DNA from: Argopecten irradians
Lineage: Eukaryota; Mollusca; Bivalvia; Pectinida; Pectinidae
DNA length: 64,000 bases
Direction: 5' to 3'
Assembly (NCBI RefSeq): GCF_041381155.1
Contig: NC_091134.1
Coordinates: 69,420,469-69,484,468 of the forward strand
In this document: positions 12,501 through 52,205 of the stretch, piece by piece
How the letters are laid out: each line of letters opens with the position of its first letter
Numbering within the stretch: position 1 is the first letter of the stretch
Notes under the pieces: generated by a model
The model's input: the letters and a program-made list of their open reading frames with translations, nothing else
Told to the model about the DNA's origin: nothing
Database searches by the model: none
Translations under genes and position numbers: made by a program

Positions 12501-15500
12501 GGAAGCCAGACTTGAGAGGATTATTAAACAATTATTAATTAGCAGTCATTGTTGTAGTATGTTCCCATAGGCCTGAATCTGCATATACCGATCGCGATAT
12601 GTGCAGGTAAACCAATCACGTGTTACGACAAACCACAGGTGAATTTCAATTGTTTGTATCCATGTTATATTTACGTAATTGTTGGGATTTTTTTTATTTA
12701 AAATTTTGACTAAAATTAAATTCGAGATAGCGACTATTTTTTCCGCTGAATATCCGTTCTAGGGACCAGGAATTGACTTTGACACAACCGGAGTTTCGAG
12801 TCATCGAAATTCGAGTCATCCGATCTTAAAATACATACACAAAGAAGAACTTGAAAATTGTTTCGACTCAACCGGAATTTTGACTCAAGCGATTTTGAGA
12901 TAACGAGTTTCGACTGTATATATATATGTATACATGTATATATATATATATATATAACTGATCTTGAATATCTACCCCATTCTCAATGGCCAATTTTTGA
13001 AATCTGTCCGTAATATTTGCACTTTTTTTTTAAAACCACCGCTTAGATCTATGCCTAGGCCTAGTAGGAAGCTACATGTAAGCATAGCAACTCAATTTCA
13101 ATGCTGAAAAATGCAAATATCTACATTTAGGCCAGTCACACAGTAAAACATACTACATGGATGTGGAAGGAACTCCAACTAACATTCAAGAAGTGACTGA
13201 AGAAAAAGACCTGGGAGTAGTGATAGACAACAAACTGATGTTTACACCCCATATTCAATCAGCTGTGAAAAAAGCAAACAAAATTCTAGGGGTAATAAGG
13301 AGAACATTTAGACATATGGACAAAACAACTTTCCTAAACTTATACAAACAAGGAGCCGCAAAGCTTGGCATTATCCCTCGCGCCCAGTTGTGTATGAAAG
13401 CTCAAACATAAAATAAATGAAGCTCATTGTAACTAAGAGTTTAAATCTTGATATTGTCATCCATGTAGGTATTTTTAAATAAGTTTCCATAGTAACAGAA
13501 AAAGTATCGAAAATGAAAGGTTCCCATTAGCAAAAGGCACAACTAGAGCACTAGCCTAACATGTACAGAAAGTTTCGTGTAGCCAAGTTGAATGGTTTTC
13601 AATTATAGCCTGGAATAGAAAGGAAACTTTAATAATATGGTATTTTTTAATAAATTTCCATGGTAACAAAAAAAGTATTGAAAATGGAAGGTTCCCATTA
13701 GAAAAAGGCACAACTAGAGCACTAGCCTAACATGTACAGAAAGTTTCGTGTAGCCAAATTGAACGGCTTTCGAGTTATAGCCCGGAATAGAAAGGAAACT
13801 TTAATAATATGGTATTTTTGAATAAGTTTCCATGGTAACAGAAAAAGTATCGAAAATGAAAGGTTCCCATTAGCAAAAGGCACAACTAGAGCACTAGCCT
13901 AACATGTACAGAAAGTTTCGTGTAGCCAAGTTGAACGGTTTTAGAGTTATAGCCCGGAATAGAAAGGAAACTTTAATAATATGGTATTTTTTAATAAGTT
14001 TCCATGGTAACAGAAAAAGTATTGAAAATGGAAGGTTCCCATTAGAAAAAGGCACAACTAGAGCACTAGCCTAACATGTACAGAAAGTTTCGTGTAGCCA
14101 AGTTGAACGGTTTTCGAGTTATAGCCCGGAATAGAAAGGAAACTTTAATAATATGGTATTTTTGAATAAGTTTCCATGGTAACAGAAAAAGTATCGAAAA
14201 TGAAAGGTTCCCATTAGCAAAAGGCACAACTAGAGCACTAGCCTAACATGTACAGAAAGTTTCGTGTAGCCAAGTTGAACGGTTTAGGAGTTATAGCCCG
14301 GAAACGATACTCGGACGGACGGACGGACGCACGGACGCACAGAGCCCAAATCAATATCCCCCGCAAACGCGTTTCGCGGGGGATAATTACTTGTTCGACC
14401 CCACTTGGAATACGCATCACCAGTCTGGTCAACGATATTTAAGAAAGACACCCAGATCATAGAAATGTACAATGTCGAGCTACTAAACTGGATAAATCCA
14501 TTAAAAACAAATCATACTCGGAAAGACTCCTTGTCTTAGGACTACCATCACTCCAATATAGACACGCCAGAATGGACATGATTGAGATCTACAGGATTCT
14601 CAATGAAATTGACCTTTGTGACAAAACCATCCTACTATCATTGAACAATGAAATCAGAACTAGAGGTCACTCCAAAAGGCTGATAAAAAAGCACTGTAGA
14701 TTAAATGTCAGGAATTCTCATTCTCGCAAAGAACTGTAAATATATTGAACAACTTATCTGAAGAAGTAGTGTCATCTCCTACCTTGAACCAGTTCAAATC
14801 ATCTCTAAATGAACTATGGAAGAAACAAAAAATCAAATTCTGCCCAAATTGCTATTCAGACCAACCGGAACCGGAAGTAAGAAACACTGTGATGGGTCAG
14901 AGAGGCGACGACCGCCTATGATAATAGACCTCGACGACAGGTAACAGATAATAGTACGCCTTCTTAGGCAAAAGTAGGTCTAGATAAAATATTTCCTTGC
15001 GCAAAAACTGATGTTAAGATACCCAAGTTCATACCCAAGTTCATGAGCAAATGAAACCAGATTTTTTAAGTTGTTAACAGTTTCATTGAATCCAACTTCA
15101 GTGAAAATTGAAATATTAAGTTGTAAGAGCTTTTTATTTATTTCACTCTATGTTCGTGATAGTAACCTATTGTGCGACATACATATCCATGTGGTATGTT
15201 GACATATATTGCAGTCACATGAAGGGTAAATGTGACATTTGGATCTAGTGTTGCTGATCAGATAATCATACACCTAACTGAATTCTTTACACATTCTTGG
15301 CAACATGCCATTCATAGCTGAATCAAAGTTTATGTTTTCTAATTTTTTGAAATTCGTCCTATATTTAGATAATCTGGCATTCCGGTTTTAGTAGCATCAC
15401 ATATGAGAATAACATCAAATCGTCTGCAGGAGTGAGTGTAAAATGTGAAGAATGTATTGGCCAAATGCTTTCCAGCAAACCGCGTGGAAGCTTGTCAGTG

Positions 15501-23100: not shown

Positions 23101-26100
23101 AATCCTTGAACCCAGTTTACAAAATTCTGACTTTTTCATAAAACCTGCCCATACGACTTAAGGTATAACTCTAAACAGATTTTTTTGCATATGTGCAAAT
23201 GCATCTACTAATTGTGTTTTGTCTGAAATCGATCGTGTGACTTATTACACATTTAATACCATTGCTTAATTACCAGTAAATATGTTTGTCATTTAATTCT
23301 ACTGTGAGTTGGTGGATTTAATTCTATAAACCAAGTTTTGAGAACCGTAACACATATTTAGAATTTAGACGGAGTGATATTTTCCGATCTAATTGTTTTT
23401 GACGAAATACATTCAGCTTTCAAATACACGTAATACAGTTCATCCGACGACTTGTTGATATTTCGCTCAAGTTCATTCATTAGTGTCTTTACTAGAACAA
23501 TAAATCATGCAGTCAGACGAACTGAAGATGTCTATGTCTAATCCAAATATCAGATATCAAGTTTCAAAATCAGAATACTTTCAATGTCGTGCCGCGTTAA
23601 TCTCTATACCTGTATACTGCAGTAACTTAAACGCGTGATCAACCCTGGCTAATGAGGGGATTACGTAAGAAAGGTGTTTAGTGACCTGTCACGCTTTGTT
23701 GATTAGCACACGTCACGTGTCAAAATATCAGTCCACAGGAAGTTAGCGATAGGCCATGATGTTATTGTTGTATAATTCAATTTTGCTTGTTACGAGCATT
23801 TTCATTGGCTTAAAAATTTACTTTATCAGCCCATAAAGGAAAAAATGGCGTCGCCGTTTGTAACGTCGCTTCTGATTGGCTGAGATGACGCCGTAATAAT
23901 TTCATAGACAAAAGAGTCCCAAAATGAATTTTAAATGTTGAAGAGATTATCTTTAGTAAAATGAATTATAAGGATTAATTTGAATAGATTTTTTATGTTA
24001 TGGAGATATAACACAAAAATCTGAGTGTACTCTCATCATAAACCGCTTCGCGGTTTATTTAGAGTACACTCAGATTTTTGTGTTATATCTCCATAACATA
24101 AAAAATCTATTCAAGTTAATCCTTAAATAATGTCATATTTGTAAACACTTATAAATTTTTGGTTTAAAAATAAAAGTAAAATATACCGTTTGTGCGTAAC
24201 ATATAACAAGTGTATCAAGCACTACATGTATATACTTCAGAAACACCCATGTGTACATTTGTACATCATAAATGTTTCTGGCTACATGTACATGTATATG
24301 TATTTTCATAACAAAAACTGCAAAATTATTTATAAATGGCATGTCGAGAAAGAACAAATGCAAATATAATGCACAATGTCAGAATTTTGATACTAGATTT
24401 CGGATATCCAATTCTTTGTGAATTTTGGTCAATATCGATCATTATTATGATACCAAAAATAATAATCTGTATGATCAATAAATTTACTGTTGAAGATTGT
24501 TTAACCCTTTAAGCGCTTGTCACCGCAAATGTCGTTCCGCTAGTATCGGTCTCGTAATGTTGGTCACCGCAAATGTCGTTCTGTTGACAACCTTTTTCAC
24601 ACGGCTCTTAGGTATTTCCCATCCACGTGTTTATAAATAAAAATGATTCTGATTGGTTGTTTAGGCCCCAAACTAGCATAACAGCGTGTATGTACTGATA
24701 CTCTCGGCGGGAGTACTACGATATGCTATGTTGAACAGGCCCCGACAGCAAACGTAAACAATTCGTAAATTCCATCATGGCGGCCGCTTTTGACTCAGAC
24801 TGGGACAGTGACGAAGGCGATAATATTGAAAATATCTTCAATGAAAATAGTGACAGTTAAACTGAATTCAAAGGTTTTGGGCCCGAGTATATTGTTAGGA
24901 ATGGAGCAGTAATTGCTCACATTGATATGGATGATTTCTCGCCCGAGAATGACGACGAAGACAACTCGGACAAAGCGGAGGGTTGGATGAAATCATCGGG
25001 GCCACCTTTTTGTGTCCCGTTTACAAGGGAATCAAAACTTATTATTAATATGGAAAATCAGGAACCTATAGATTTTTCCACTTATTTCTAAATGACGATT
25101 TTTTAAATATTGTTGTCCAACAGATTTATATGCCGACCGCAAAATATCAAGGTCGTCAAGGAAATCACTCGCGTATCTTCGAGTGGAAACAGGTGTCACT
25201 CGAGGAGATGAAAGTATTTTTTAGTCTTTTTATAGCGATGGGATTGTCCATAAAACCGAGACTTACTGGGCAACTGAGAACGTTATTTTTACTCCATTTT
25301 TCGGAGACAAAATGTCTAAAGATCGTTTCCAAAATATTCTCTCAAACTTACACCTGTGTGACAACGACACCTTCATACCTTTGTACCGTATTTTCCCTAA
25401 TGAGGGCGCCGGGCGCGGGTAAATGGCCTAGGGGGGCGCCGTTATTTGAGACCATTTTTAGATGTTTTTTTCTGAAACAGACTATAGTCATCTTGCTTTT
25501 AGTTTCGTATTTTTCTGAAACTTACTATAGCCAAATTACGTTTTGAAGTCAAGTAAGTATTGAAATTACATAATTATGAAGAAATGTTTGCACCAGAAGT
25601 ATTAAACATTGGTTAAATATGTATGTTTCACGGAATTTTTGCATTTTATGCTAGCCTGTTTGTTTACCATGCGTACACAAAATGGCGGACGGTGCTTTCG
25701 ATCGCTACTTTCGTTTTGTGGCAGATGGGAAATACCGACAAGAGCACACAATTAAATGCTTAGAAATGATAACATGCCTGTTATTTAGTAACCTTTATCA
25801 TAGACATACAGTAAGTATTCATAAAACCTGTATAGACATCGCTAAAATGTTGTTGCCAGTTAGTCTTCATCCATACACGTGTGTGGGGCATTCAAGTGAC
25901 ACGTTTTGTTTTGAACATGGAATTCTCGCTGTTTCTATGTGTAAACACTTAGCAAAGATGTCCTAAGTTACCCAGTGCAATACATTTATAGCTGATGGGA
26001 TATCTGTTAAGCATCAGATTGATGTGAAACAGTATTTTATTAGCGTCTGCAAAGACAATTCGTCACAATCTGGCACAAAAATTGTATGAAATTAGCTGAT

Positions 26101-30437: not shown

Positions 30438-30754
30438 CTTCTCTCTCTGGAAGGGACGCCCACACTAGAAGAGCAGTACTGGGGACTAGACGACATTTTC
30501 ATTCCAGGTCAGGGTCCCACCAAGCCAGGAAGTATGGCTCCTGTCGGCGAGGGGGTAAAGAGATCCGTGATCATGTGATAATTTATAAGGACTACTTTAC
30601 CATCTGTGATGTGTTGTAGTAACAAGATATTTACTATATAGCTACAAACACTGCAATCCATTTAGATTGCTCTGTGTATACCTAAGCTGCTATGAATTGT
30701 CAACAAATTTCCTCATGATCTTTATATCATGTGAGGGATGGTGTAAATCGTGTG

Positions 30755-32365
30755 GGATACAGTAACCTAAAACTGAATAGTTAGATAGGATTTCTGAGTA
30801 TGACTATACGTAAGGATACAGTAACTAAAAACTGAATAGTTAAATAGGATTTCTGAGTATGACTATACGTAAGGATACAGTAACCCAAAGCTGAATAGTT
30901 AGATAGGATATCTGAGTATGACTATATATAAGGATACAGTAACCTAAAACTGAATAGTTAGATAGGATATCTGAGTATGACTATACCTAAGGATACAGTA
31001 ACCTAAAACTGAATAGTTAGATAGGATATCTGAGTATGACTATACATAAGGATACAGTAACCTAAAACTGAATAGTTAGATAGGATATCTGAGTATGACT
31101 ATACATAAGGATACAGTAACCTAAAACTGAATAGTTAGATAGGATTTCTGAGTATGACTTTACTTAACCCTTTACCACATGTAAGCGCCTTTGGACGCCT
31201 TTACCCCTTACCCCATGTAAACAACTTTGGACGCCCCGCACCATCTCAATGTAATATAAGCGCCTCTGGACGCCCGTACATGATTGATCTAAATGCAAGC
31301 GACTCTGGACGCCATTTTGACTATCAATGTTTTGCTAGCTTCGTATCACGTGATAAAGCATCACATGTGTTCAGACTTTACAATCTAATTATAGACGTGC
31401 CAAATTTCTAACCAATCAAAAATCGGCACAGTGTTACTATATAAAACTCGAGAAAATCACACGTGTTCACTGCTTCACTCATGTTACCAGAGACGCCATC
31501 ATGGCTTCTGTTGTTGATATTTCAGCAGATATTTGTAATTATAAGTACAATGTCATGATATTTAAATATCACAGACCTAACACCATATTATCTGACTATG
31601 ATTTAGACGATGTTTTATTCAATTTGACCGATAGAAAATCTGACGGTCATGAAGAACGGCGAGGTCTCGTACTATCGTCATTACCTGATGCCGTGTTGGA
31701 ATGGACTGGCAAGTTTACAGCCGTGAGTGTTGATAAATTTGTTAGAAACTTGTTGTCAAAACTTCTATAAACCTTTAATATACTTCATTTAAAGTTGATA
31801 GATTATTTCCGTGCTTTTTCAACAGCAAATAATGTACAAACATTCCACAACAAACACACTACGCGGAACAATAGAAAGTGAAAGTAGCGGTGAACCGGCA
31901 CGGACAAAGCAGAAATAAGTGTTTTTCAGAGCAAATATATTGACTGAGCCATGATTCAGATATATATTAGTTTGTTTACGATATTTCAAGTAATTTGTGC
32001 AAATCTTTTTCTAAAAGTTATACAAAATCGGCAATATTTTGAGTATTTCGGACAGAGAAAATCAACCATTTTCTGACCTGTAAATGTTTTTAATAATTTT
32101 TGAAGTCCTCGTATCGAATAATATTTGGAAATGATAGCATCACTGTAGTTTGATTCATTTTGAAGCAACTTTATTACCAAAACATTTCTCAAAAATAAAC
32201 ATGAAAGTAAATAAATCCTGACAGATGTTGCAACAATGTTCGTGTTGAACATTGTATACTTTCCTCATGGAAGCCTGGTGATGCAGTCTACTAGTTTGCA
32301 TGTGGTAAAGGGTTAAGGATACAGTAACCTAAAACTGTATAGTTAGATAGGATTTCTGAGTAAGA
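30755..32365. repeat. 59-bp minisatellite, split by an insertion
   Basis: About seven units (GGATACAGTAACCTAAAACT, then ...GAATAGTTAGATAGGATWTC...) run 30755-31163 with a period of 59 bp, checked at 30814, 30873 and 30932. One more unit continues at 32317-32365 on the other side of the insertion at 31168-32312. It directly follows the KPNA2 stop. Confidence 0.92.
31168..32312. mobile_element. piggyBac-like non-autonomous element
   Basis: 1145 bp with inverted ends CCCTTTACCACATG, flanked by TTAA (31164-31167 and 32313-32316). Four TTTGGACGCC/TCTGGACGCC motifs lie within the first 150 bp, spaced about 35-40 bp, probable transposase binding sites. The insertion site TTAA lies in the minisatellite unit, whose sequence resumes exactly after the second TTAA. 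An 89-codon open frame (31501-31770, MASVVDISADICNYKYNVMI...) starts after GCCATCATGG but is unrecognised; a coding remnant of the parent is possible. Confidence 0.88.
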
Positions 32366-36920: not shown

Positions 36921-38877
36921 ACATGGACATGTGTTTCTCAGTCGTGTCGGTTTCGTTTCGTGTGATAAACCACTAATGCGGTATGCAAATTGTTGTTTTG
37001 AGATGATACATTTGATGCAAATGAAGTATTCTTACATTAATGACAATGCTTTGTAATAATTTTTCGATAAAAGCATCTTGTACATGGAAATCGACACAAA
37101 TATTCGGCCGATGCAGAGATGGGGCCCCGGCAAGGGGCAATTATTGCAGCATCGCATTCGTCGTATTTTACATCAACCGAATCATGAAGGTTAAGTACAA
37201 ATAATCGTAACATAATTTCCCATTTAAAACCACACGAAAACGTTCCATAGAACGTCCATGCATGTAGCTGTCAAAGATGTGAAAATAAATTAGCTCATAC
37301 ATAGATATTTTACAAGTACAATATATGTGTTCAATTATTCGTGTAGTTTTTTGCAGAGATTTAATTAAATTATCTATGTCTCTGTTTGTTTTTTTTTTGT
37401 AAACAATATTTGAGTTCTGGAGAGAGATGACATGAATGTCCAGCTGGAAGGAAAGAAACTTTTATGATGTATATGTATCGTACAATGTATATATGTAAAC
37501 GTACATTCCATGTAGCTGCTATAGAATTACAACTAGGAAATTCTCTCAAACATTGATAATATTTAATTCTTCACATTCATGTAGGCCTATGCTGTGAGAA
37601 TTAACACATCATATATATTTCCAGAAAACATATAGGCCTACATGTATGTTACTTTCCTTTTCTGTTGTTTCCTGTTCTTTTTTGTGCTCTGGAGAAAAAG
37701 ATGATTGAGTTGAAGAAAAGTAATTAATTAAGAGAAATGTGTACCACAGTACTTTGTCTGTAGCCGAGGGGTTCTATACTGTTTTAATAGTCCAGTAATT
37801 AATAATTAAATTGAAAATTTCAAAATTAAGATGAAATTGTAAATTCCATTTTTGAATGAAGTGGTTCCCCTCCTTTGAGAGTACACGGTGTGTATACCCT
37901 TTTTGGTTTTTAGGAATAATACCTGAATAGGAACCTGAAATAACATGACAATCAATCAGGTATGTGTGTGTTGTGGGGTAGGGGGGGGGGGCTAAAAGAC
38001 AGAAGAATCATGAGGTTGGGAAGTTGTAACTTGAGTGGGGGGTTGAAATATAGAAGAAATAGCTACAGATAAGTGGAAGGGTGCTTTATCATTGATCTGG
38101 TCATTGCATATTTGGGGTTTACATGGCTTTTTTTTTGGTTATTTAGTCTCATTGATTTTGGAGCAACTTTGAATCCATATGGTACTGTATATCTTTCTTT
38201 TTTCCATGTGTAGCTATTTCTTCTGTATTTCACCCTCCGCCCAAGTCACAACTTCCCAATAGGTACCACTTTTTTTGTTTAGAACTCAAATCAAAGACAG
38301 ATGTACATAGTACTACATACTACATTTTAGTCTATGTGTTTGTAATCACTGTTACTACAGTATTAATACATAAATGGTCTATGTACAAGTTACACATAGA
38401 CAATAAATGTGAAATTTGGTTCAGACAAAAAGATTTTTAACATTTCAGATAACTTGCTAGTTTTATGGTTTTATTTATATGTTGAGTCTATTCTCTTGTA
38501 AAGTAGAATTTAGAAATGCTAAGACAATGGTATCTATATTGCTATATGTAAAAAAAATCCTTATATTTTAAAAGTAATTGAAAAGCTATCTCACAAGCCC
38601 TGACAAACAAATGGGCCGGCATATGGATGCAAGAATTATAATCACTGGATCTAGAGGACTAATATAAACAAATATTTCTACAAAGTTAAACAATGAAAAA
38701 GTATTGCATCATAATTTTATTTAATGATTACAGTTGAAAGGAACATTTAATAAATTAATACTGTTTAAATGTTCTGTTCATGATCTTATAGGTCCATATT
38801 GGAAAAGTTTACTTTCAAGAGCACTCATATCAACATTCTTCAGTCTTCATATGATGCTAATTGTATGTATATGTATA
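36921..38877. other. Intergenic, no feature recognised
   Basis: Low-complexity AT sequence with a poly-G run near 37980-37990. No coding frame or element ends seen. Confidence 0.5.
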
Positions 38878-39185
38878 CATACACTTGTATACAGGTCCAA
38901 GGGATGAACTTTCTGTATTCATGTCACTATGCATGCATGGTGCCTGAAAAAAAGAACCAACAATTTTTTTATATCTGTTGAATATGACAAAAATTGAAAT
39001 GATCAATTTCAAATATATATAAATGAATAAATGTAGGTTCATTCTACAGGTTTTTTTTTTTATTTTAGAGAAAACATTTTATAAGTTGTGAATGTGTCAC
39101 TGATGCATTTGATAGAATCAAATATTGTTTCAAAAAAAGATACAAAATTCATTATCTATAGTTCCAACAAAAATTCAGAATAATT
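38878..39185. repeat. Target-site duplication of LINE-A, left copy
   Basis: 308 bp, repeated at 51168-51477. The two differ only in the length of one poly-T and one poly-A run. The junctions are sharp: the copies diverge at the LINE-A 5' end on one side and its 3' end on the other. This is far longer than usual LINE target duplications. Confidence 0.88.
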
Positions 39186-39289
39186 CGGACTCATAGGTCA
39201 CGTGACACGACAGTGGTCACACGTTAAATTACCTCTGGTGAAATATTGCTAATATATGGTGCTAAAGTGGCTTAAATTTGCTTAAAAAA

Positions 39290-40246
39290 ATGACTGGTGG
39301 AAGAAGAGGTTGTCGAACGAGAGGAGGAAGTAGCGGTAGAGGTGCTTTGAACAGTTCTAGAGCAGGGAAATGTGGATTTTCTGTACAAGGCCAGGACACA
39401 TCCAGCGACGAAGATCAAAATGGCCACGACGAGTTCGTCAAGGTCACCTCCAAACGGCAACGGCACAGTACAGGGGGCAGTAAAGTGGACACTGGTCTGG
39501 ACTTATCAAAGTTTGAATCTATGTCTGTAGATGAGAAACTGAGTGTTATGATGGGAAAGCTTATGAAGCTCGATGGTATTGAAGTCGCCCTGAACAAGGT
39601 CAGTAAACAAGTTGATATAGCCGTAGAGGACATTGAAAGCATACAGGAAAATATTGATAGTTTAGAAGACAGAATGAAATATCTGGAATATAGAGCAATT
39701 GATTTGGAGGCAAGAAGTCGTCGCAACAATTTGTTGTTTTACGGTATTCCGTATTCAGCAGGTGAAAGGGGCATAGATGTTGTTAAAAACTTTATTAAAA
39801 CAAAGCTGAATATCAGTGAAGGTGAAGACATGTTTATACAAAGAGCACATCGTGTAGGGAATCCCAGCCGAGCACGTGGAGAAAATGATGGACAGGTTAA
39901 ACCACGCCCATTAATCGCGGGTTTCCGTGACTATACCGACACTGAAAAAATGATGTCTGAAGTGAAATGCCTCAAAGATACAGGTTTCGGGATTGGTAGA
40001 GACTACCCAAAGGAAGTTCAAACCGCGCGTAAGAAACTGCTGAAGGACCTAAGGACGGCAAGAAGGAATAATGAAGACGCAAAGATAGTTTTTCCAGCTA
40101 AGCTGATCGTGAAGGGCAAGGTAGTCAAGGACGCGTTACCTGAATGGGACACAATTCTACAGCGACGGGCGTCTACTGATTGGTCCGGAAGGCAGCGAAG
40201 CGAGCCAATGGAAGCGGCAAGGGGCGGAGACTCGGACAGTGACTAG
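39290..40246 (+). CDS. LINE-A ORF1 protein (RNA-binding chaperone)
   Basis: 318 codons from the first ATG (AAAATGACTGG). A Gly/Arg-rich N-terminus (TGGRRGCRTRGGSSGRG) is followed by a coiled coil at about 80-150 (EDIESIQENIDSLEDRMKYL). Then comes the RRM-like and C-terminal region of L1-type ORF1p (Transposase_22 family): SRRNNLLFYGIPYSAGERGI and FIQRAHRVGNPSRA. Such proteins trimerise and coat the LINE RNA. It ends at TAG 40244-40246. ORF2 continues in the same frame right after, and no ATG precedes the endonuclease domain. Confidence 0.85.
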   Translation: MTGGRRGCRTRGGSSGRGALNSSRAGKCGFSVQGQDTSSDEDQNGHDEFVKVTSKRQRHSTGGSKVDTGLDLSKFESMSVDEKLSVMMGKLMKLDGIEVALNKVSKQVDIAVEDIESIQENIDSLEDRMKYLEYRAIDLEARSRRNNLLFYGIPYSAGERGIDVVKNFIKTKLNISEGEDMFIQRAHRVGNPSRARGENDGQVKPRPLIAGFRDYTDTEKMMSEVKCLKDTGFGIGRDYPKEVQTARKKLLKDLRTARRNNEDAKIVFPAKLIVKGKVVKDALPEWDTILQRRASTDWSGRQRSEPMEAARGGDSDSD

Positions 40247-43200
40247 GTTAGCGAAGGTTGCACGTGCACGTACGCGGGTAAGGACAGCATTAGACTTGTT
40301 TACCTGAACTGTCAAGGGTTAGTTACTAAAAGAAGTAACAAACTGAACAGCGATTTCTTTAAAAAACTTATTGATGTTAATGACATTCTTTTGTTTACCG
40401 AGACGTGGACGTCTCCATTGCGGGATATTGAGGTTGAAAATTTTACATGTTTTCCCTTGCATAGAACTGAATATGTTAAAAATACTAAAAGAGACTCTGG
40501 TGGCCTTATTGTATATGTAAGAGATACAATCTCACAGGGTATCAAAATTGTTAACAAGGATTCTGATGATATTATCATTATGCAACTTTCAAAAGATTAC
40601 TTTGGTTTTGAGAGAGATATTTTCCTATGTTTATGTTACGTACTGCCTGTTAATTCTGGTAGAAGAGCGCTGACGAATGCGGATACTCTTGACCGATTAA
40701 ACGATCATTATTTAAATATATTGAATAATAATGTTCATTCATTCATTCATTCATGTCTTTATTCCTCCAAAATTTGAAGAGTTACAATGAACGTATTATA
40801 TTATGATGAACAGGAAAACAACAGAAACTTTAGGTAAATAAGGAGAACATTGGTACAGTGCAGAACAATCAAAATAATAAGTGATAACTATAAAATATGA
40901 CACACAAAAAAACACCCACAAAAAAGGGAAAAAATACAGAGTGTAGGATGCATTGAGACATACTCTTACTAGTTAAACGTTAGCTGTGAAGCTTTTTCAG
41001 AATAAATGCAGCATTCTTTAGCAAATGACGCAAAGCATCGGTCCTCGTCAATAAAAATATCTTTCAATGTGGCTGGTGGACTGCCGAGGAGCATTGAGAT
41101 CTTAACTTCCATTGAGGAGTTGGTTAAAAAGGTGTAAACTTGTACTGGGTAGTCGTTGACTATCTTCGTGGAAAAAAACGTCACGGAGAGATAGCAATGC
41201 GCGACTACGACAGTCTAGCAAAGAATGTGCCACTGCATCGTATACATAATCATTGCACTGGGCACAAGAGAGTTCGCAATTTGGTGAAATGCACCATAGC
41301 TTAGCAACATTTTTAAACGTTCTATCAAGATATGGGTAACATTTAGATAAGAACCATATCGGCGAAGGACGCATATCACACTGGAGGTTTTTAAACCTCT
41401 CAAACTCTTCACAGACAGTGAGGCGTTCACTCCACTGTGAGGTGTACTCGCCAAGAAGGACAGCCTTAATGAGATGTTTCCAATAATGCTTCACTGGGAA
41501 AATCCCATCTTGCAAGAATTGGTACAAGAAGTCTTGCAATTCATATTTGTGAAAAATGTTCCAAATGTCGACAGCAAAACCATTTTCGCTACAGTAGGTA
41601 CCAAAATATACATGAAAGAGACGTAGTATGAAGAGCCTCTTCGCAGTAAAGCGTATATCTGCTCTGCATAATGCAGAAAAGAACCGAAGTTTCGAAAGTT
41701 CAACATTTAACCGTATGGATGTTAACCCAAGCATACTTAGGACAATATCTGATCTGGTGCGCCTTGGAAAACCTTGAATAAGCTTAGCACACAAATGGTG
41801 AACTGTTTCAAGGCGGTTCCATTCAGTTTCAGATAGTGAGAACCAGAGTTCACATCCAAAAAGGCTACCTGGCATAACTACTGTCTTGTACAACTTAGCA
41901 GCGGTCAATGGATTAATTCCAATACCAAATAAATTACAGTTTAACAAAGCAAAACATTGACTACGAAGCTTGTTAACTGTCTCATTGACGTCTGGACAAC
42001 CTGGTTTGAATTTATTTAGAAATATACCGACATGCTTGGTATTTATAGATTCTGAGACAGTATCATTGCCGAGTTTCCACAGACGTTTTGCTTTCGAAAA
42101 TGAACTTTTGCTTTCGTTAAAAACAATCACAGAAGACTTAGATGCATTGTAACTAAATCTCCATTTACAACTGTAATTGTAACAGATATCCATAAGACAG
42201 TCCAAACCACGTTTACAAAAAGACAGAAGGGTAATATCATCAGCTTGCGTTGGACAAGTTACATTTATATCTTGTATGATAAGAGAGTACTGAGATGAAC
42301 ATAAATCATTAAGTAGGTCATTAATGAAAACTGTGTACAGCCACGGAGAAATAATACTTCCCTGGCGTGTACCTTGGTGTATCTTGAACCAATTTGATAC
42401 CAAACCTTGGTGCAATACAGCACTATACATGTTCGAATATAGAGAAACAATAATATTGATATACTTTGATTTAAAACCTAAGTTTTGAAGTTTGTAAAAA
42501 AGACCATTGTGCCAAACACAATCAAACGCTTTAGCAGCATCGAGAAAACATGTAAAAAGTTTGCTGTTATTTTCTTTTGCAAATGTAATAGATTCATTAA
42601 CCAGAAATGACGTCATTGTACTACTGACGTGCTTTTGAAAGCCATTCTGTAGAGGATTTGGAATAAACAAATTTGTTTCTTCAAGTCTACCAAGCAAAAT
42701 TTTTTCAAAAACTTTCAAAATTACTGGTAAAAGAGATATGGCACGATAACTGTTAGGGTCAGTTTTTGGCTTGTTGTGACCTTTATACAGTATACAAATC
42801 AGCCCCTTTGTAAGTACAGGAGGGACATATTCTACTCTAACGAAAGCATTAAAAAGAGCATGAAGGCAGTTGTACAAGTTATCGTTGGCAAAAATCAAAT
42901 GTTCGTACACAATGTTATCATATCCAGCTGTTTTACCACGTGGTAAACATCTACATACCCTTTTAACAACCTGCAGTGGAATTTCATCAAAATCTTGAGA
43001 CTTTACCGAATGACTGGCTAAAGTATTGGTAACTGATTTATTGATTTCGGCTTCGAAATTTGAATCAAAATGATCACATGTTGACAGAGAGTAAATGTTT
43101 TCAAAATACTGACCCCAGCAGGTGGTTAAAAGAGCAGGGTCTCTTACGACTGACCCGTTAAAGTTCATTTCTGCACCGACAGCACCCGATGATGATTTAC

Positions 43201-46200
43201 AGCGACGTTTAACCAAAGACCAAAATGAACTTTGACTAACGTCCGCACATTTTTCTATTTCGTTATTCAGGTCTATAACATGATCTTCTGAAATATGGCG
43301 ATGTCTTTTTCTAAATAAACACTTTGCATTTTTGTAGAGTCTAAATGTAGCAGAGGAAGGATCGCGGGGTCGTCCTGCAGCTATCCATTCCTTACGCAGA
43401 CGCCACATATTCCGATGGAGGTCCTTAAGGTGCTCGTTCCAATACGGTTTTAGGAACTTGCAGAATTTCCGTTTCACCAGAGATCTTTCAGACGTACTCT
43501 GTATACAGGTAACGAGTTCGTCAGTAAACTTATCAATGTCATCCTCACACGTAAGTTCTCGCGTGTTTGCTAATGTTGATTGCTCGATGGCTTCTTCTAA
43601 GCTTTCCCGATAAGCGGATACGTTCTCAGAAGTTCCAGTAGTAATCCACTTGTAAGAAAATCGCATCATCTTACTACAATGATGATCCATACGTTCCGGA
43701 AGAGGAATGCGTAGCTCACATAACAAAGGTCTGTGGTTTGAGACATCGAGGAATCCGTGTTCTAGTACAGCGCAATCACAAACAAGATCAACCTTAGACG
43801 AGTTGATGATGATATGATCTATAAGGGACGACGATCCATCATCCGACTGGACATACGAGAATAATGGGCCTCTACATACATCAGAGGTTGACAAAGCGCA
43901 AAGCTGATGCCGGTCCATGAGTCTCTGGAGCAACTGGCCACGATGATTTACATAATTAGGTACGCGTGGGCCACTCAACCGAGCATTAAAATCTCCCATA
44001 AGGATTACGGATCCATTAAGAGAAAAGTTTGTACATATATCATCGAGTTTCGCAATGTAATCCGTGAAGATATCTGCACCGTACCGAGATGTAGGAAGGT
44101 AAACTTGGATAAAATACCAAATATCAGTCCCTGTAACAAGTTTAAAACAATGGCGATCCTGTCATCGTCTGAATCAACAACGGATATCATATCACTGAAT
44201 TTTCTGTGCCACATTATAGCAACACCACCTTTACGACAGCGTTGATCCGCAAGCGTATGGAGAGAAAAGTCTGAAATGACGACTGCCTCGTAATCTTTGT
44301 GAATGCTATAGAACAGATGCCTGTTCTCCTCATAGAGCCAGTGCTCAGATATTCCACAGATATCGATGTGCTCCCTGTTCAAAGCCTCGTGTAGATGAGA
44401 TGCAGCCGACATAATACCGGTTACATTCCATGACATAAACCGGATGTTCATCGACATGGCTAAAATGAGGCACAACAGGTAAACTATGTAAATAACCTTA
44501 TACATTATCATTATTGTCAGATCGCGAGTTGTCATTGTAACCATAGAACTGATTATTTGAAATCCACTTGCGACACCGAATGCCTTTTGGCCAGAACCCA
44601 GACTCCTTTATCTTTGACATGTCGGCCGATATTACGTTGACACGAGCAGACACGGTAAATTTTCGTTTGCTTTTGAGCAGCCGAACAAATGTAACGCTCA
44701 CATTACGAGACTCGAGGTATGTTCTAATATCATCTACGGAACATCTTTCCGACGACATTCCGCTGAGAAAAAGGCGAGTCGTTTTCTTCCGAGTCACTGC
44801 CACAAACCCACTTGAATCGACACTGCTGACCTTGTCAAATGGTTGTTTTGCAGGAAGCGAGAATGACGATCCAGATTTAGCACCGTGATCTTTACAAACT
44901 ATTCCACGTGATGCTTCAGCATCTACATTCTCGTGGATAGGCAGATGTGATTCGACAGGATGAATGTTTGCACAATTAGCACTAATGACCGAGCGCCGAG
45001 GAGCTAGCTTAGATGTATCATCGTGACGCGATGGGGTTCCACAATCGGGAATATCCTTCTGGGGTTCGATGTGATTAGCGATAGAAGGGATATCGCTACA
45101 TGGGACAGAAGTATTGTCAGAGGTCACAGGTGGAACATTGACCATTGAAGAAGTTTGAGTATTAAGAATTACAAATTGTTCCATCTCAGATAACTGAGTG
45201 CTGAGTTCCTGCGCGAATGCTTTCACCGCTATATCTGTAGTTTCTTTGGTCTTGTTAGAGACAGCTTTAACATCTTTTGTTTACCGAGACGTGGACGTCT
45301 CCATTGCGGGATATTGAGGTTGAAAATTTTACATGTTTTCCCTTGCATAGAACTGAATATGTTAAAAATACTAAAAGAGACTCTGGTGGCCTTATTGTAT
45401 ATGTAAGAGATACAATCTCACAGGGTATCAAAATTGTTAACAAGGATTCTGATGATATTATCATTATGCAACTTTCAAAAGATTACTTTGGTTTTGAGAG
45501 AGATATTTTCCTATGTTTATGTTACGTACTGCCTGTTAATTCTGGTAGAAGAGCGCTGACGAATGCGGATACTCTTGACCGATTAAACGATCATTATTTA
45601 AATATATTGAATAATAATGTAGATCCCATAGATTTTATAGTTGTAGGTGACATGAATGCTAGGACTAGCAAGTGTCAAGATTACATAGAAGTTGATGAAA
45701 ATGATTATGTTCCTTTGAGTGAAGATTACATTACAGATATAGATATACCTCGTCACTCATTAGATATAGCTAGTATCACAAGGAAATTTTGTGATAAAAT
45801 GCATAGTGCTAAAATTGACTTTGAACTGAAAATACGTTTACTCAAAAGACTCTTTGTTAAATATATTTCTAAGACATCACAATAGCTAGTATTCCTATTG
45901 TTAATATTAACAATGTATATAATTAGAGTTCGGAAGTCCAGTTTTACTGTACATGTCAACATTGATCAATTCTTTGTCGTATAGGTATAACAACTCAGCT
46001 AACCTGTCCATTATATTACGTAATAGGATTATCATATTAGTCCACTGGTCATCTTCAGATTGCCTCAGTCTAATTTAACACCTATAGATAAGCGACATCT
46101 GTCAATCACAATTCTAGAATTTCATTGTCTGTATATGTATTTAACCATGTTATGTTTTATTTCATGTTAGTTAGGTCTCCGACTTTGTACGGAACACAAC

Positions 46201-49200
46201 GGCTATATTCTGGACACTCCAGAATAGCCATCCGTCAAGTCAAAGTTATCATCATTAAATTCCAAAGTTCAACTTCAACATTTTCTTTCGTCATCTTTAC
46301 ATCGTGACAAAACGTGCGGAAGTTTCCGTATGTTAATTGGTGGAGATAATCCTGGTAGTACCCACTTCTACGCTGGGTACGCTTTCACGTTACCTAAACT
46401 GCTAAGCGAAGTGTTCCCTACGAGCGACACAAAGATCTAGAAGGACCAACTCTATTCGGAATCACACGGACTGGAACCCTACCAAGGCTGTGTTCGTCAT
46501 ACTTTGGATCTAACCAGAGTAACGTTTGTGTATGACAGTAACTGTCAGGATGACGAACGCCGCATGTTACAGATGCGGTGATAAATTCGTCCCCAATCAT
46601 GTATTGTGGTGTCCTGCAAATGGATGTTACTGTTTCATGTGTGGAAATATTGGACATTTTTCTCGGGTGTGTTTTCGTCGGACCGGATATCGTACTGAAA
46701 ACATCAGTACTACAGGATCGTCTCCCTGGACCAGACAGTGTCCCAATTCCTTTGCACGTCCTGTTTCTGCTCCGAAAAAATCTTCGGACAGAGAGTCTGA
46801 TCGTCCGACATCGCCAAGGAAAAAGACCAAGTCCACATCTAAACGGCGGCGAGATTCCGAACGACTCAGGAATTACCGAGAGATCAAAAAGGTACAGAAA
46901 TCATTTCCTTTTTATGAACTTTCTATCATTGAGCTGACAGCCGTTTTGAAAACTGATATGAAACAGGACAATCTAAAATGTCTCACAAAAAAGAACAAAA
47001 GGCTAGTGTCTACAGTAGAGATTCTACAACGACAATGTAATAATTTTCAATATGAAATCACAACTCTTAAGGACTGTGTCTCCGAACTTCAGAACTCCCA
47101 AGACAACATAGCATCGGCATGGGAAAAACAGTTTATTACCCTTAAGATTGAACATCAGAACACAATAAGGAAATTGCACTCCAGAGATATTTTCATCGAG
47201 GACTTACAGGCATCGCTTTCGATTCAAAAAGAGGAATTTCGCACTATTAGTTTAGAAAACAGCAGGCTTATCCAACTGAACACCAACCTCGGCAAAGAAA
47301 TTTCTAGATTAAAGCGGAACAATAAAGAATGTGTACAGACTTTACCATCTCATTCAGCAAATTATATGCACAACCAGAACACGTGTTATTCAAATGGATT
47401 GCCCCTTGAACCAACAGCACCAGTACCCCTACATTACAACCATGGGCCGTACCAAAATAAACTAAGCCGAAGAGGGAGATTTAAATGACTCTCTGAGACG
47501 AGGACGTCTCATTTTTTGTAGCCGGAAGGAATTATCACAAGGAAATTTTGTGATAAAATGCATAGTGCTAAAATTGACTTTGAACTGAAAATACGTTTAC
47601 TCAAAAGACTCTTTGTTAAATATATTTCTAAGACATCACAATAGCTAGTATTCCTATTGTTAATATTAACAATGTATATAATTAGAGTTCGGAAGTCCAG
47701 TTTTACTGTACATGTCAACATTGATCAATTCTTTGTCGTATAGGTATAACAACTCAGCTAACCTGTCCATTATATTACGTAATAGGATTATCATATTAGT
47801 CCACTGGTCATCTTCAGATTGCCTCAGTCTAATTTAACACCTATAGATAAGCGACATCTGTCAATCACAATTCTAGAATTTCATTGTCTGTATATGTATT
47901 TAACCATGTTATGTTTTATTTCATGTTAGTTAGGTCTCCGACTTTGTACGGAACACAACGGCTATATTCTGGACACTCCAGAATAGCCATCCGTCAAGTC
48001 AAAGTTATCATCATTAAATTCCAAAGTTCAACTTCAACATTTTCTTTCGTCATCTTTACATCGTGACAAAACGTGCGGAAGTTTCCGTATGTTACTAGTA
48101 CGAATGAAAACGGTCACAAACTCATTGATATCTGTAAAAGGTCAGGGTTAAGGATTTTGAATGGTAGAATTGGAAACGACGCTGGAATTGGCAATTTTAC
48201 TTGTATAAATGAGCGAGGAAAAAGTCTAGTTGATTATGTGTTGTCAACACAGAGTATTTTCCCTTTGTTTACTAATTTTCAGGTTGGCCAACCAAACATA
48301 TACAGTGATCATGTGACTATTTCGTTCTCGTTACAAACTGATACCGAAAATGTGAGCACTCTGCAGTCAAATGAAATGTATTCAAAATATTACAAATGGA
48401 AACCGGAAATGTGTGACGCGTATATTCAAAATTTGCTTGGCGAGGATTGTCAACTACTGTTGTCCGAAATGACAACTTTAATTGAAAATGTCGGAGTAGA
48501 AACCAGTAACTTAAATAAAGCGGTTGAAAAATTTAATGAAGCTCTGTGTAAAGCAGCGGATCCAATTATGTCAAAAGTCAGTCGAGTTAGGTCGCACGGT
48601 GAGGTCATAAGTACAGGTAATAGCAGGAAGTATACTATTCCCTGGTATAGTAAAAAGTGTGAGGAAATCAGGTCAGTATTTTTTGAAAAATTAAATCTAT
48701 ACAGGAGAGAGAGTACGGATGAGAATCGAGTTAACATGGTGAAAGCAAGAAACGAGTTTAAAAAGGAAGCAAGGAAATGTCGTTTAAGTTACGACGCTGA
48801 TAAAACTTCAAAATTAGTGAATTTTAGAGTAATCTAAATAAACATAGCAATCCCAAAAAATATTGGTCATTGTTAAAAGAGTCATCATCTGCAAATAACA
48901 ATATCAACATTGATGCCGACAAGTTTGCGAATTTTTTCAGTTCAATTAATAATCCGGACGACCCTTTTTTTACACCCGACGAAGATGTAGTAAATTATGT
49001 TGATAGGTACGAAAATAGTGAATTGCAAGTAATGTTTAATGAACTAAATCAAAACATAGACCAAAAGGAAATCACAGATGCTTTAAGTCGGCTTAAAAAC
49101 GGGAAAAGTGCAGGGCCTGATTTGGTGATAAACGAGTTTTTGAGTAGAGGGCGCAACATACTTACCCCATACCTCGAAGCGTTATTCAATGCTATTTTTA

Positions 49201-50999
49201 GAAAGGGGGAATTCCCCACTATTTGGTCAGAGAGTTACGTGATACCCATTCATAAAAAGGGAAGCAAATCAGATGTTCGTAATTATAGAGGTGTTACTTT
49301 ATTAAGTGTGGTTGGTAAGCTTTTTACGAAAATTTTGAATAATAGGTTAACTACCTGGGCCGAAAAATACAGTGTTTATGTAGAAGCCCAGGCCGGGTTT
49401 AGAGCTGGTCATAGTACGATTGATAACATTTTTATTTTACATGGCCTAATATCATGTTTTATTAATAATAGAGAAACTTTGTATTGTACTTTTATTGATT
49501 TTTCGAAGGCCTTTGATTATGTTGTGAGGGAAAACTTATGGTTAAAGTTATTGAAATTGGGAATTCGAGGTAAGATGCTTGATATTGTCAAGTCAATGTA
49601 TCAATCAGTTAAAGCTAGGGTGAAAGTTAATAATGAACTTTCTGATGAGTACGAATGTGTAACCGGGGTAAAACAAGGGGAAAGTTTGTCCCCATTTCTT
49701 TTTGCAATGTATGTAAATGATCTTGAAGAAGAGCTGATTTTAAAAGGCTTTGAAGGGGTGTCAATAAATTTTTTGAAATTATTTATATTACTTTATGCAG
49801 ATGACATCACTTTGATGGCCTGCACTAGTACTGGATTACAAAAGGGTCTGGATATTCTGCACGGTTATTGTGATAGATGGAAATTAAAAGTAAATGTTGA
49901 GAAAACCAAGGTCATGATTTTCAGAAACGGTGGTCGATTACCAGAAGATTTAAAATTCTATTTGGGTGAGGAGGAGGTGCAGATAGTTAAAAAGTTTTCT
50001 TTTTTGGGCTTAGTACTCTCATCCAGTGGGTCATTTTCCGATGCCCAATCAACTCTAGCGGGACAAGGAAATAAATCACTTTTTCAGCTGGAAAAACAAT
50101 TGCAAAAATTTATTAACCTTTCACCTAAACATGCATATAATTTATTTGAAAAATTAGTGTGTCCCGTAATGAGTTATGGGTGTGAAGTGTGGGGTTTTCA
50201 CTCTGGGTTGGCAGTAGAAAAGGTTCATTTAAGGTTTTGTAAAAGATTGCTTGGAGTGAAAACTTCGACACAGAACAACTTTATTTACGGAGAATTAGGA
50301 TGTTTGCCACTAAAACTCAAGAGATATTTTAAGATAATTAAGTATTGGCTACAGATTGTCCATCATAAGAAAAATGTATTGGTGAAGTCAGTCTATGATG
50401 AACTTTATCAACAAGCTGAATCATATAGAATAATTAACTGGGCAAAATTAGTAAAACAATTATTATGTACGTATAGTTTTGGTTATGTTTGGTTAGAACA
50501 ACAAGTTGGAAACGAAAAGGTATTTTTAGAGTTATTCCAAACTAGAGTTAAAGATATTTTTATACAAAACTGGCATAGTGAGCTGGTAGATTCGCCAAGG
50601 GCAAGATGTTATTTATTTTTTACAAATGAATTTGGATATAAGAGTTATCTCGATACTGTAAATATTGAAAAATATAGAAAAGCTCTAACGAAGATTAGAA
50701 CATCATCACTTAGATTGTACATAGAAAGAGGTCGGTGGCACAAGCCTAATCCAATTCCAGTCGATTTGAGATATTGTTTTAATTGTGCAAAAATTGAAGA
50801 TGAATATCATTTTATCTTGGAATGTCCTATTTATGTAGATATTAGATCAAAACTGTTAAAAAAGAAATTTTGGTTGAGGCCTAATATGACTAAATTTATA
50901 GATCTCTTGACTTCAGAAAATAGTAGCATTGTTAAAAATTTAGCTATCTTTGTTCACAAGGCTAATGAAGTTAGAAATTCAATATTATTTGATAATTGA
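40247..50999 (+). CDS. LINE-A ORF2: endonuclease and reverse transcriptase, interrupted
   Basis: The frame opens directly after the ORF1 stop. Pieces lie at 40247-40734, 45621-45775 and 48095-50999; 45273-45620 repeats the end of the first piece. Endonuclease motifs: IRLVYLNCQGLVTK, FTETW, VVGDMNART and YSDHVTISF. RT motifs: IHKKGSKSDVRNYRGVTLLS, FIDFSKAFDYV, TGVKQGESLSPFLFAMYVND and the catalytic LYADDITLMA. Near the C-terminus is a CX2CX7HX4C finger, CFNCAKIEDEYHFILEC. A one-base frame change lies near 48830, where NKHSNPKKYWSLLK reads in the next frame. LINE-B and a terminal-repeat element lie inside, so the copy is dead unless spliced or excised. Confidence 0.88.
40387..40734. repeat. Target-site duplication of LINE-B, left copy
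   Basis: 348 bp of LINE-A endonuclease coding sequence, repeated without visible difference at 45273-45620. LINE-A coding continues upstream of the left copy and downstream of the right one. This proves a duplication of target and not a terminal repeat. Confidence 0.93.
41102..44514 (-). CDS. LINE-B ORF2: endonuclease and reverse transcriptase
   Basis: About 1130 codons. The APE-type endonuclease opens with MNIRFMSWNVTGIMSAASHL, then DICGISEHWL and MGDFNARL, and the last motif is VSNHRPLLCEL. RT motifs: YRAISLLPVILKVFEKILLG, FLDAAKAFDCVWH, GTRQGSIISPWLYTVFINDL and the catalytic QADDITLLSF. The C-terminus has a CX2CX7HX4C finger, CAQCNDYVYDAVAHSLLDC, the same spacing as in LINE-A. A one-base frame change near 44150 separates the two long open stretches (44544-44005 and 43999-41102). 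Otherwise it is intact. Its start overlaps the end of ORF1. Confidence 0.9.
44498..45272 (-). CDS. LINE-B ORF1, 5'-truncated
   Basis: Open from the element's 5' junction to TAA at 44500-44498. There is a Ser/Asp-rich middle, then an RRM-like fold TRLFLSGMSSERCSVDDIRT and KESGFWPKGIRCRKW, typical of ORF1 proteins of CR1-like LINEs. The N-terminus is missing. ORF1 stop and an ORF2 ATG overlap in ATGTATAAG, the arrangement used for termination-reinitiation in some LINEs. Confidence 0.75.
45273..45620. repeat. Target-site duplication of LINE-B, right copy
   Basis: Second copy of 40387-40734; LINE-A ORF2 continues in frame from 45621 (DPIDFIVVGDMNART). Confidence 0.93.
45776..46335. repeat. Left terminal direct repeat (LTR-like)
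   Basis: 560 bp. Contains the hairpin GGCTATATTCTGGACACTCC/AGAATAGCC and ends GGAAGTTTCCGTATGTTA. Confidence 0.82.
46532..47488 (+). CDS. Zinc-knuckle and coiled-coil protein of the LTR-like element
   Basis: 318 codons from the first ATG. The N-terminus has two close zinc motifs: CYRCGDKFVPNHVLWC (CX2CX7HX3C) and CFMCGNIGHFSRVC (CX2CX4HX4C, the retroviral-type knuckle). A basic stretch SPRKKTKSTSKRRRDSERLR follows, then about 170 residues of predicted coiled coil (LKCLTKKNKRLVSTVEILQR onward). A Pro/Tyr-rich tail ends it. In ordinary Gag proteins the knuckle lies at the C-terminus, so this order is unusual. It could package or chaperone element RNA, which is an inference; the exact family is not recognised. 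Confidence 0.6.
   Translation: MTVTVRMTNAACYRCGDKFVPNHVLWCPANGCYCFMCGNIGHFSRVCFRRTGYRTENISTTGSSPWTRQCPNSFARPVSAPKKSSDRESDRPTSPRKKTKSTSKRRRDSERLRNYREIKKVQKSFPFYELSIIELTAVLKTDMKQDNLKCLTKKNKRLVSTVEILQRQCNNFQYEITTLKDCVSELQNSQDNIASAWEKQFITLKIEHQNTIRKLHSRDIFIEDLQASLSIQKEEFRTISLENSRLIQLNTNLGKEISRLKRNNKECVQTLPSHSANYMHNQNTCYSNGLPLEPTAPVPLHYNHGPYQNKLSRRGRFK
47535..48094. repeat. Right terminal direct repeat (LTR-like)
   Basis: 560 bp, same sequence and orientation as 45776-46335. LINE-A resumes after the CTAGTA target copy. Confidence 0.82.
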
Positions 51000-51167
51000 T
51001 ATATTTGTTATGTGCATCCTTTCGCTGATTTCTTTTTTTTTTTTTTTATATATATATATATATATAGTGTACATCCTTTTTCCAGAAAAGTCTGTTTACC
51101 ATTGTCATGTCTGTATTTGTTTTGCACAAAGGCTTTTTAGCCTATTTGCTAAATGAAATAAAGATTC

Positions 51168-51477
51168 CATACACTTGTATACAGGTCCAAGGGATGAACT
51201 TTCTGTATTCATGTCACTATGCATGCATGGTGCCTGAAAAAAAGAACCAACAATTTTTTTATATCTGTTGAATATGACAAAAATTGAAATGATCAATTTC
51301 AAATATATATAAATGAATAAATGTAGGTTCATTCTACAGGTTTTTTTTTTTTTTATTTTAGAGAAAACATTTTATAAGTTGTGAATGTGTCACTGATGCA
51401 TTTGATAGAATCAAATATTGTTTCAAAAAAGATACAAAATTCATTATCTATAGTTCCAACAAAAATTCAGAATAATT
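51168..51477. repeat. Target-site duplication of LINE-A, right copy
   Basis: 310 bp; see 38878-39185. The poly-T run is 14 here against 11 in the left copy, and the poly-A 6 against 7. Confidence 0.88.
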
Positions 51478-52205
51478 ATAAATGATACATGGCTGCAGTA
51501 CATTTCAACTCTGTAAAGTTTGTCATATACACATGAACCAGGTACAGTTGTAATAAATATACAAACACTATTTATTATTATGACCAGAAATAATACTGTA
51601 TGTGTCCTCCAAATATATCTAAAGAACAAGCTAAAACCTACATGTACATATGTATATGTGTATATCAGAACATATACAATACAATTTTACCAATTAACCT
51701 ACAATGTAAATCCTATATACAATGTATGTGTATAACACTATCAGAACATGTACAGAACAAAAATTTACAAATTAAAAATCTATAAATATATACATCAGAA
51801 CTGTATGAATTGACCGGTAGCATAATATTATAGATTAATTGAAACAAATCTTAGCTTGATAATGCACTAGCGGTTACATTCTAACTGTACATGCATTACA
51901 ACGGTACATTTTATAAATATACAGGGCATTCATTACCCCTAAAGAGGCCCCACGAAAGAACCGCTATTTACCCCAGGGTTACGTTTTACGCGATTGGGGA
52001 ACAGGTATGAAACATGTGACCATATGTGACCACTCATTTATGAAAAAATACTGCTAGGGACTATTTACATAATGATCAAAATACGAAGACTCACTCACTA
52101 TCAGCTGAGCAGGGAGTACCGGGTAGTAGGCCTAGGTACGTACAGTAGCGGTCCGGAGCCGCGTGCTCGTTTGAACTGTTCTCTTCACTATAACAAGTTA
52201 TATTA
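51478..52205. other. Intergenic, no feature recognised
   Basis: AT-rich sequence continuing the locus that LINE-A entered. No gene seen. Confidence 0.5.

Follow-up and report, generated by a model that had tools for sequence, protein, structure and literature searches.

In the window analyzed here (the whole 64,000-nucleotide stretch of the Argopecten irradians genome), one LINE (hereafter, LINE-B) is inserted in a copy of another, unrelated LINE (LINE-A), and a 348-bp duplication of the LINE-A target flanks LINE-B on both sides. Comparison with other copies confirmed that this duplication is real (Table 1). Based on a survey of 40 insertion events of the two families, we propose, with a probability of about 0.8, that target-primed reverse transcription brought LINE-B into LINE-A and that the position of the second break was loose, and also that the presence of two long duplications in one nested locus would be a coincidence.

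A self-comparison of the window showed that the two copies of the direct repeat are identical at all 348 positions (0 mismatches), that similarity ends at once on either side of both copies, and that the repeat abuts both LINE-B ends, i.e., the 5' junction and the (ATGA)n tail. A chance origin was ruled out, given that an exact match of this length is far beyond chance. The LINE-A reading frame enters the left copy (ORF 40247–40777) and exits the right copy (ORF 45271–45885). When the 348-bp block was used for a genome search, 12 matches were found, comprising the window's own two, six that were read at the site (L002, L004–L008), and four outside the reading (one on C6, which by coordinates lies within the LINE-A copy L084/L057; two pieces on C5; and a weak match of 75% on C3). 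The block was single in all six other LINE-A loci read, which identifies it as duplicated target DNA; LINE-A extends well beyond the block in five of these loci, and in L008 it carries an internal deletion 13 bases past the block. At the 29 other LINE-B loci read (L010–L038), no LINE-A match was found beside LINE-B. Thus, the repeat has the properties of a LINE target duplication: it abuts both ends of the element, is single at empty sites, and is absent from other LINE-B copies. An earlier note on this DNA had already taken the block to be LINE-A target DNA, and both its single state in the six loci and the passage of the LINE-A frame into it at left and out of it at right bear this out.

Table 1 Features of the nested locus in the window (position 1 is the first letter of the window) and target duplications detected at surveyed copies
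Feature	Position	Strand	Length	Remarks
LINE-A target duplication, left copy	38878..39185	+	308 bp	Empty sites known
LINE-A with two nested insertions (LINE-B, LTR-type element)	39188..51167	+		
Left 348-bp target copy	40387..40734	+	348 bp	LINE-A ORF2 endonuclease-region coding sequence; exact repeat
Left 348-bp copy, 3' end	40734			LINE-B cDNA begins here
LINE-B	40735..45272	-	4538 bp	5'-truncated; (ATGA)n 3' tail at left end; from comparison with other copies
LINE-B ORF2, endonuclease C-terminal part and reverse transcriptase	41102..44161	-		PF00078, 92.5 bits; PF14529, 32.7 bits
LINE-B ORF2, N-terminal part in another frame (endonuclease start)	44005..44607	-		PF03372, 20.4 bits
Right 348-bp target copy	45273..45620	+	348 bp	Exact repeat
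LINE-A target duplication, right copy	51168..51477	+	310 bp	Empty sites known
Duplication, LINE-B in the window			348 bp	
Duplication, LINE-B L011			162–166 bp	100% identical, clean junctions; possibly up to four bases below 166, because the tail motif ATGA also starts the block
Duplication, LINE-B L026			~101–117 bp	Old, divergent
Duplication, LINE-B L023			~33–36 bp	
Duplication, LINE-B L015 and duplicated locus L028			~25–27 bp	
Duplication, LINE-A in the window			308–310 bp	
Duplication, LINE-A L050			~377–386 bp	Doubtful
Duplication, LINE-A L088			~28–31 bp	
Duplication, LINE-A L043			15 bp	
Duplication, LINE-A L047			13 bp	
Duplication, LINE-A L049			13 bp	

The blocks adjoin both ends of LINE-B, as terminal repeats of LINE-B itself would, but the lack of any LINE-A match at the 29 other LINE-B loci, together with the occurrence of the block without LINE-B in the six LINE-A loci, makes this origin practically impossible, and we rejected it. 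Likewise, terminal repeats common to LINE-B copies, a feature of LTR retrotransposons, were not found (the block is absent from L010–L038). Instead, the LINE-B main ORF scores above the Pfam cut-offs for RVT_1 (29.6 bits) and Exo_endo_phos_2 (PF14529; 27.4 bits), and the N-terminal ORF matches PF03372 below the cut-off of 24.5 bits. A reverse transcriptase domain with an APE-like endonuclease upstream of it is characteristic of APE-type non-LTR retrotransposons, and copies of LINE-B carry the simple-repeat (ATGA)n tail and have variable 5' ends. The domain matches and the comparison of copies uphold the earlier description of LINE-B as a LINE distinct from LINE-A whose tail is (ATGA)n. LINE-B in the window lacks about 1.1 kb of 5' sequence found in fuller copies: L070–L074 have at least 814 bp more of upstream LINE-B sequence in common, and this reaches about 1.1 kb in L071, L073, and L074. 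Full-length LINE-B (L073/L074) and the differently truncated L072 start directly after the same sequence, ...TTTTCTGAAATCTCCT, which belongs to a repeat with 1182 first-look candidates (5' flanks of L072, L073, and L074; L010:892-1273); this common start may reflect insertion at the same site or a template switch.

LINE-A has a long duplication of its own; the alignment of its flanking copies (311 columns) contains 4 gap columns and no substitution. This block is part of a high-copy repeat, and empty sites were sought with the left flank plus block (608 bases) and with the block plus right flank (600 bases). Each search listed 40 full-length matches (the best 40 of 427 and of 439 candidates, respectively), including that of the window itself. 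At least 19 places were common to the two sets in a by-eye comparison, with coordinates overlapping by one block length only, as expected of an empty site. Because these 19 empty copies of the host repeat carry the block once, the 308–310 bp duplication is real, and the earlier observation that the two duplications in the window are of the same size class, about 300–350 bp (308/310 and 348 bp), stands. The host repeat itself (38378–39185 and 51168–51967) yielded 414–439 first-look candidates, the best 40 at 98–100% identity. Each of the three long-duplication LINE-B events involves a 5'-truncated element. Truncation is not needed for a long duplication, however, since the 308–310 bp one belongs to the window's LINE-A, which is nearly full-length.

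Two further explanations for the second block were considered. Because LINE-A is multicopy, its copies or alleles could have undergone unequal exchange or gene conversion, and the duplication could have been produced in this way post-insertion. Both breakpoints would then need to coincide with the two ends of LINE-B, however, and the same coincidence would be needed for L011 and for LINE-A, whose host repeat is a different one. We regard this as very improbable. A false second block created by the assembly of a heterozygous insertion is an equally slim prospect, given that the second block begins exactly at the LINE tail and that the same architecture, with other lengths, is found in independent insertions (LINE-A, L011).

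To survey duplication lengths, searches were run with the 3' ends of both LINEs, giving 74 match rows for LINE-B and 40 for LINE-A (the best 40 of 105 candidates). Thirty loci per family were read (LINE-B: L009–L038; LINE-A: L039–L068), and fuller copies were paired by searching the 5' ends of both elements; because each search scored no more than 40 candidates, further copies exist in the genome, and the numbers of copies are lower bounds. Ten LINE-A match rows lie beyond the 30 loci, of which three were read (L008, L088, L089) and seven fall outside the reading. The judged set comprised 40 insertion events (14 LINE-B and 26 LINE-A, including L008, L088, and L089). Of the 30 LINE-B loci, 14 could not be judged: L010, which lies at a contig end; L013/L070, in a satellite array; L024 and L027, whose 5' ends are not covered; and L029–L038, ten divergent or partial copies. 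The same applies to five of the 30 LINE-A loci: L042 and L051, both in satellite arrays; L045/L085, where local repeats stop short of the junctions; L053, whose 5' end is not covered; and L061, which has no 3' end. Apparent duplications of 0.4–1.4 kb at L070/L013, L042, and L051 were ruled out by their location in satellite arrays. For L053, the 3' flank had no second copy nearby among 43 listed matches (the best 40 of 1357 candidates). L080, for which only the 5' flank was tested and had no second copy nearby, was left out of the counts, as was L083/L007, which lacks a 3' end. Loci with flanks in common were merged as single events (L015+L028, L020+L021, L062+L066+L067). L073/L074, L015/L028, and L062/L066/L067 lie on the same contig with common flanks in each case and are duplicated loci; naive copy counts would be inflated by them.

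As a control, 57 mismatched flank pairs were compared, and the longest exact chance match was 10 bp; duplications of 13 bp or more are therefore above chance, and a 10-bp match at L056 was scored as none. The detection ceiling for long duplications is approximately the summed flank length, which varied among loci from roughly 0.7 to 3 kb. A short-match test of L072/L012, L071/L018, L073/L021, L004/L040, L008, L054, and L089 found nothing longer than 7 bp.

Among the 40 judged events, five have duplications of >100 bp, six have duplications of ordinary length (13 to ~36 bp), and 29 have none detectable, the last count being a maximum, since a 5' end altered by a later insertion or deletion would conceal a duplication. 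No duplication was found in 9 of 14 LINE-B events and 20 of 26 LINE-A events; part of these may be misjudged 5' ends, and the true length distribution is therefore uncertain. The five long values are ~101–117 (old), 162–166, 308–310, 348, and ~380 bp (doubtful). The doubt concerns L050, whose repeats differ by 32 substitutions in ~374 positions, whereas its LINE-A body differs from that of the window by 17 in ~744; the repeats thus seem about twice the expected age. Long duplications thus account for 5 of the 11 events with a detectable duplication (one doubtful) and are not rare among them.

The earlier note had suggested that a host or LINE feature shared by the two families sets a nick distance of 300–350 bp, and had proposed plotting duplication length across copies. 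Among the copies read, the lengths scattered broadly, most copies had no detectable duplication, and there was no peak at 300–350 bp. Both values in that range come from the window, with none among the 38 judged events outside it, and it was these two values that had suggested a common distance in the first place; a distance of 300–350 bp set by the LINE or the host is therefore unsupported. A fixed nick distance was rejected because of the scatter in length, which is also seen within LINE-B (348, ~164, ~110, ~35, and ~26 bp, and none). Taken as a whole, the first interpretation was partly supported.

A less rigid role of the host was also considered, in which host structure (nucleosome linkers, at about one or two nucleosomes, or Okazaki-fragment ends) places the second break and yields clusters at ~165 and 310–380 bp. 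Lengths of 162–166 and 348 bp are near nucleosome size. These two young LINE-B values are near a ratio of 1:2, and the LINE-A value of 308–310 bp and the doubtful ~380 bp of L050 are close to the larger of them. However, there are only four or five long values, 308–310 and ~101–117 bp fit the ratio poorly, duplications are short or undetectable in 35 of 40 events, and the pair in the window was selected for its length. We therefore consider host placement of the break unlikely. The 1:2 pattern is indistinguishable from chance when so few long values (four or five) are available and 308–310 bp is among them, and the reading that nucleosome or Okazaki-fragment spacing sets the second-strand break in this host, with one-unit (~165 bp) and two-unit (~310–380 bp) classes, is improbable.

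The scatter within LINE-B fits target-primed reverse transcription with a loosely placed second break. On the plus strand, the complement of the (ATGA)n tail directly follows position 40734, as expected if cDNA synthesis was primed from a 3' end at target position 45620 (pre-insertion order). The far limit of the duplicated stretch lies 348 bp from this priming point, at the position corresponding to 40386/40387. In the proposed sequence of events, the 3' end at that target position would prime LINE-B cDNA synthesis, the other strand would be broken at the point corresponding to 40386/40387, and filling in of the stretch between the two breaks would produce the duplication. The second break would have no fixed distance and could make use of any available nick, gap, or late cut; such a loose break would explain why lengths in both families run from none to several hundred bp. 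Against this reading, two duplications in one locus that differ by no more than 40 bp amount to a mild coincidence.

Long target duplications as such are already known and are not new. Human L1 target duplications are stated to range from several to several hundred nucleotides (PMC1291365), with a median of 13 bp where duplications were defined as 5–25 bp (PMC12016303), and kilobase duplications have been tabulated (PMC5223499). In HeLa cells, human L1 insertions are reported to have very variable duplications (Gilbert et al. 2002, 2005 and Symer et al. 2002, as cited in PMC5223499 and PMC2912911); those >100 bp never exceeded 10% of events (PMC5223499), and 5'-truncated L1 often showed radical target alterations, including extremely long duplications (PMC2912911). 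Such variable duplications are reported far more often in repair-deficient human cells, with a median of 1495 bp, and three of nine L1 duplications were >100 bp in complemented cells; the authors attributed the long duplications in nucleotide-excision-repair-deficient cells to the use of a more distal, unrelated nick for the second strand (PMC5223499).

Compared with these accounts, the insertions studied here resemble human LINE-1 in HeLa cells in being target-primed with the tail at the 3' junction and in that duplications >100 bp are a minority class (there ≤10%, here 5 of 40 judged events). They differ in their LINE families, whose ends are (ATGA)n or AATAAAGATTC rather than poly(A), and in being natural rather than engineered. 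Long duplications of variable length are shared with L1 in nucleotide-excision-repair-deficient cells, but the median there was 1495 bp, with lengths up to kilobases (PMC5223499), whereas the longest value here is ~380 bp and most judged events show none. Among the papers listed by searches of an open-licence library, no report of a comparable survey in a genome like this one was found. Very long duplications are thus not confined to engineered insertions in human cells, and insertions of this kind would escape a duplication search restricted to 5–30 bp. How the second strand is cleaved during LINE insertion is poorly understood, and young, exact long duplications from two unrelated LINE families in one genome provide natural material for studying this step.

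Several other features were observed. In the LINE-A copy L081/L041 (G000:C5:15108550-15112947), the 348-bp block is split by ~4 kb, with block positions 77–90 on both sides; by coordinates, this is another insertion into that block, with ~14 bp duplicated, and the L081 part of the insert showed similarity to neither LINE-B nor the LTR-type element. The second element nested in LINE-A of the window (45774–48094) has identical 562-bp terminal repeats, a 4-bp CTAG target duplication, and one ORF (46523–47488) with a cysteine-rich (CCHC-like) stretch recognized by eye; neither of two ORFs tested had a Pfam match, and it looks like a non-autonomous LTR-type element. Elsewhere in the window, an ORF of 647 aa (9556–11499) contains hAT dimerisation and BED zinc-finger domains and encodes a hAT transposase, and an ORF of 165 aa (25049–25546), with a DDE_Tnp_1_7 match just over the cut-off, is perhaps a transposase fragment. 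Tandem arrays are present at 30696–31226 (59-bp units) and 13425–14411 (~172-bp units).
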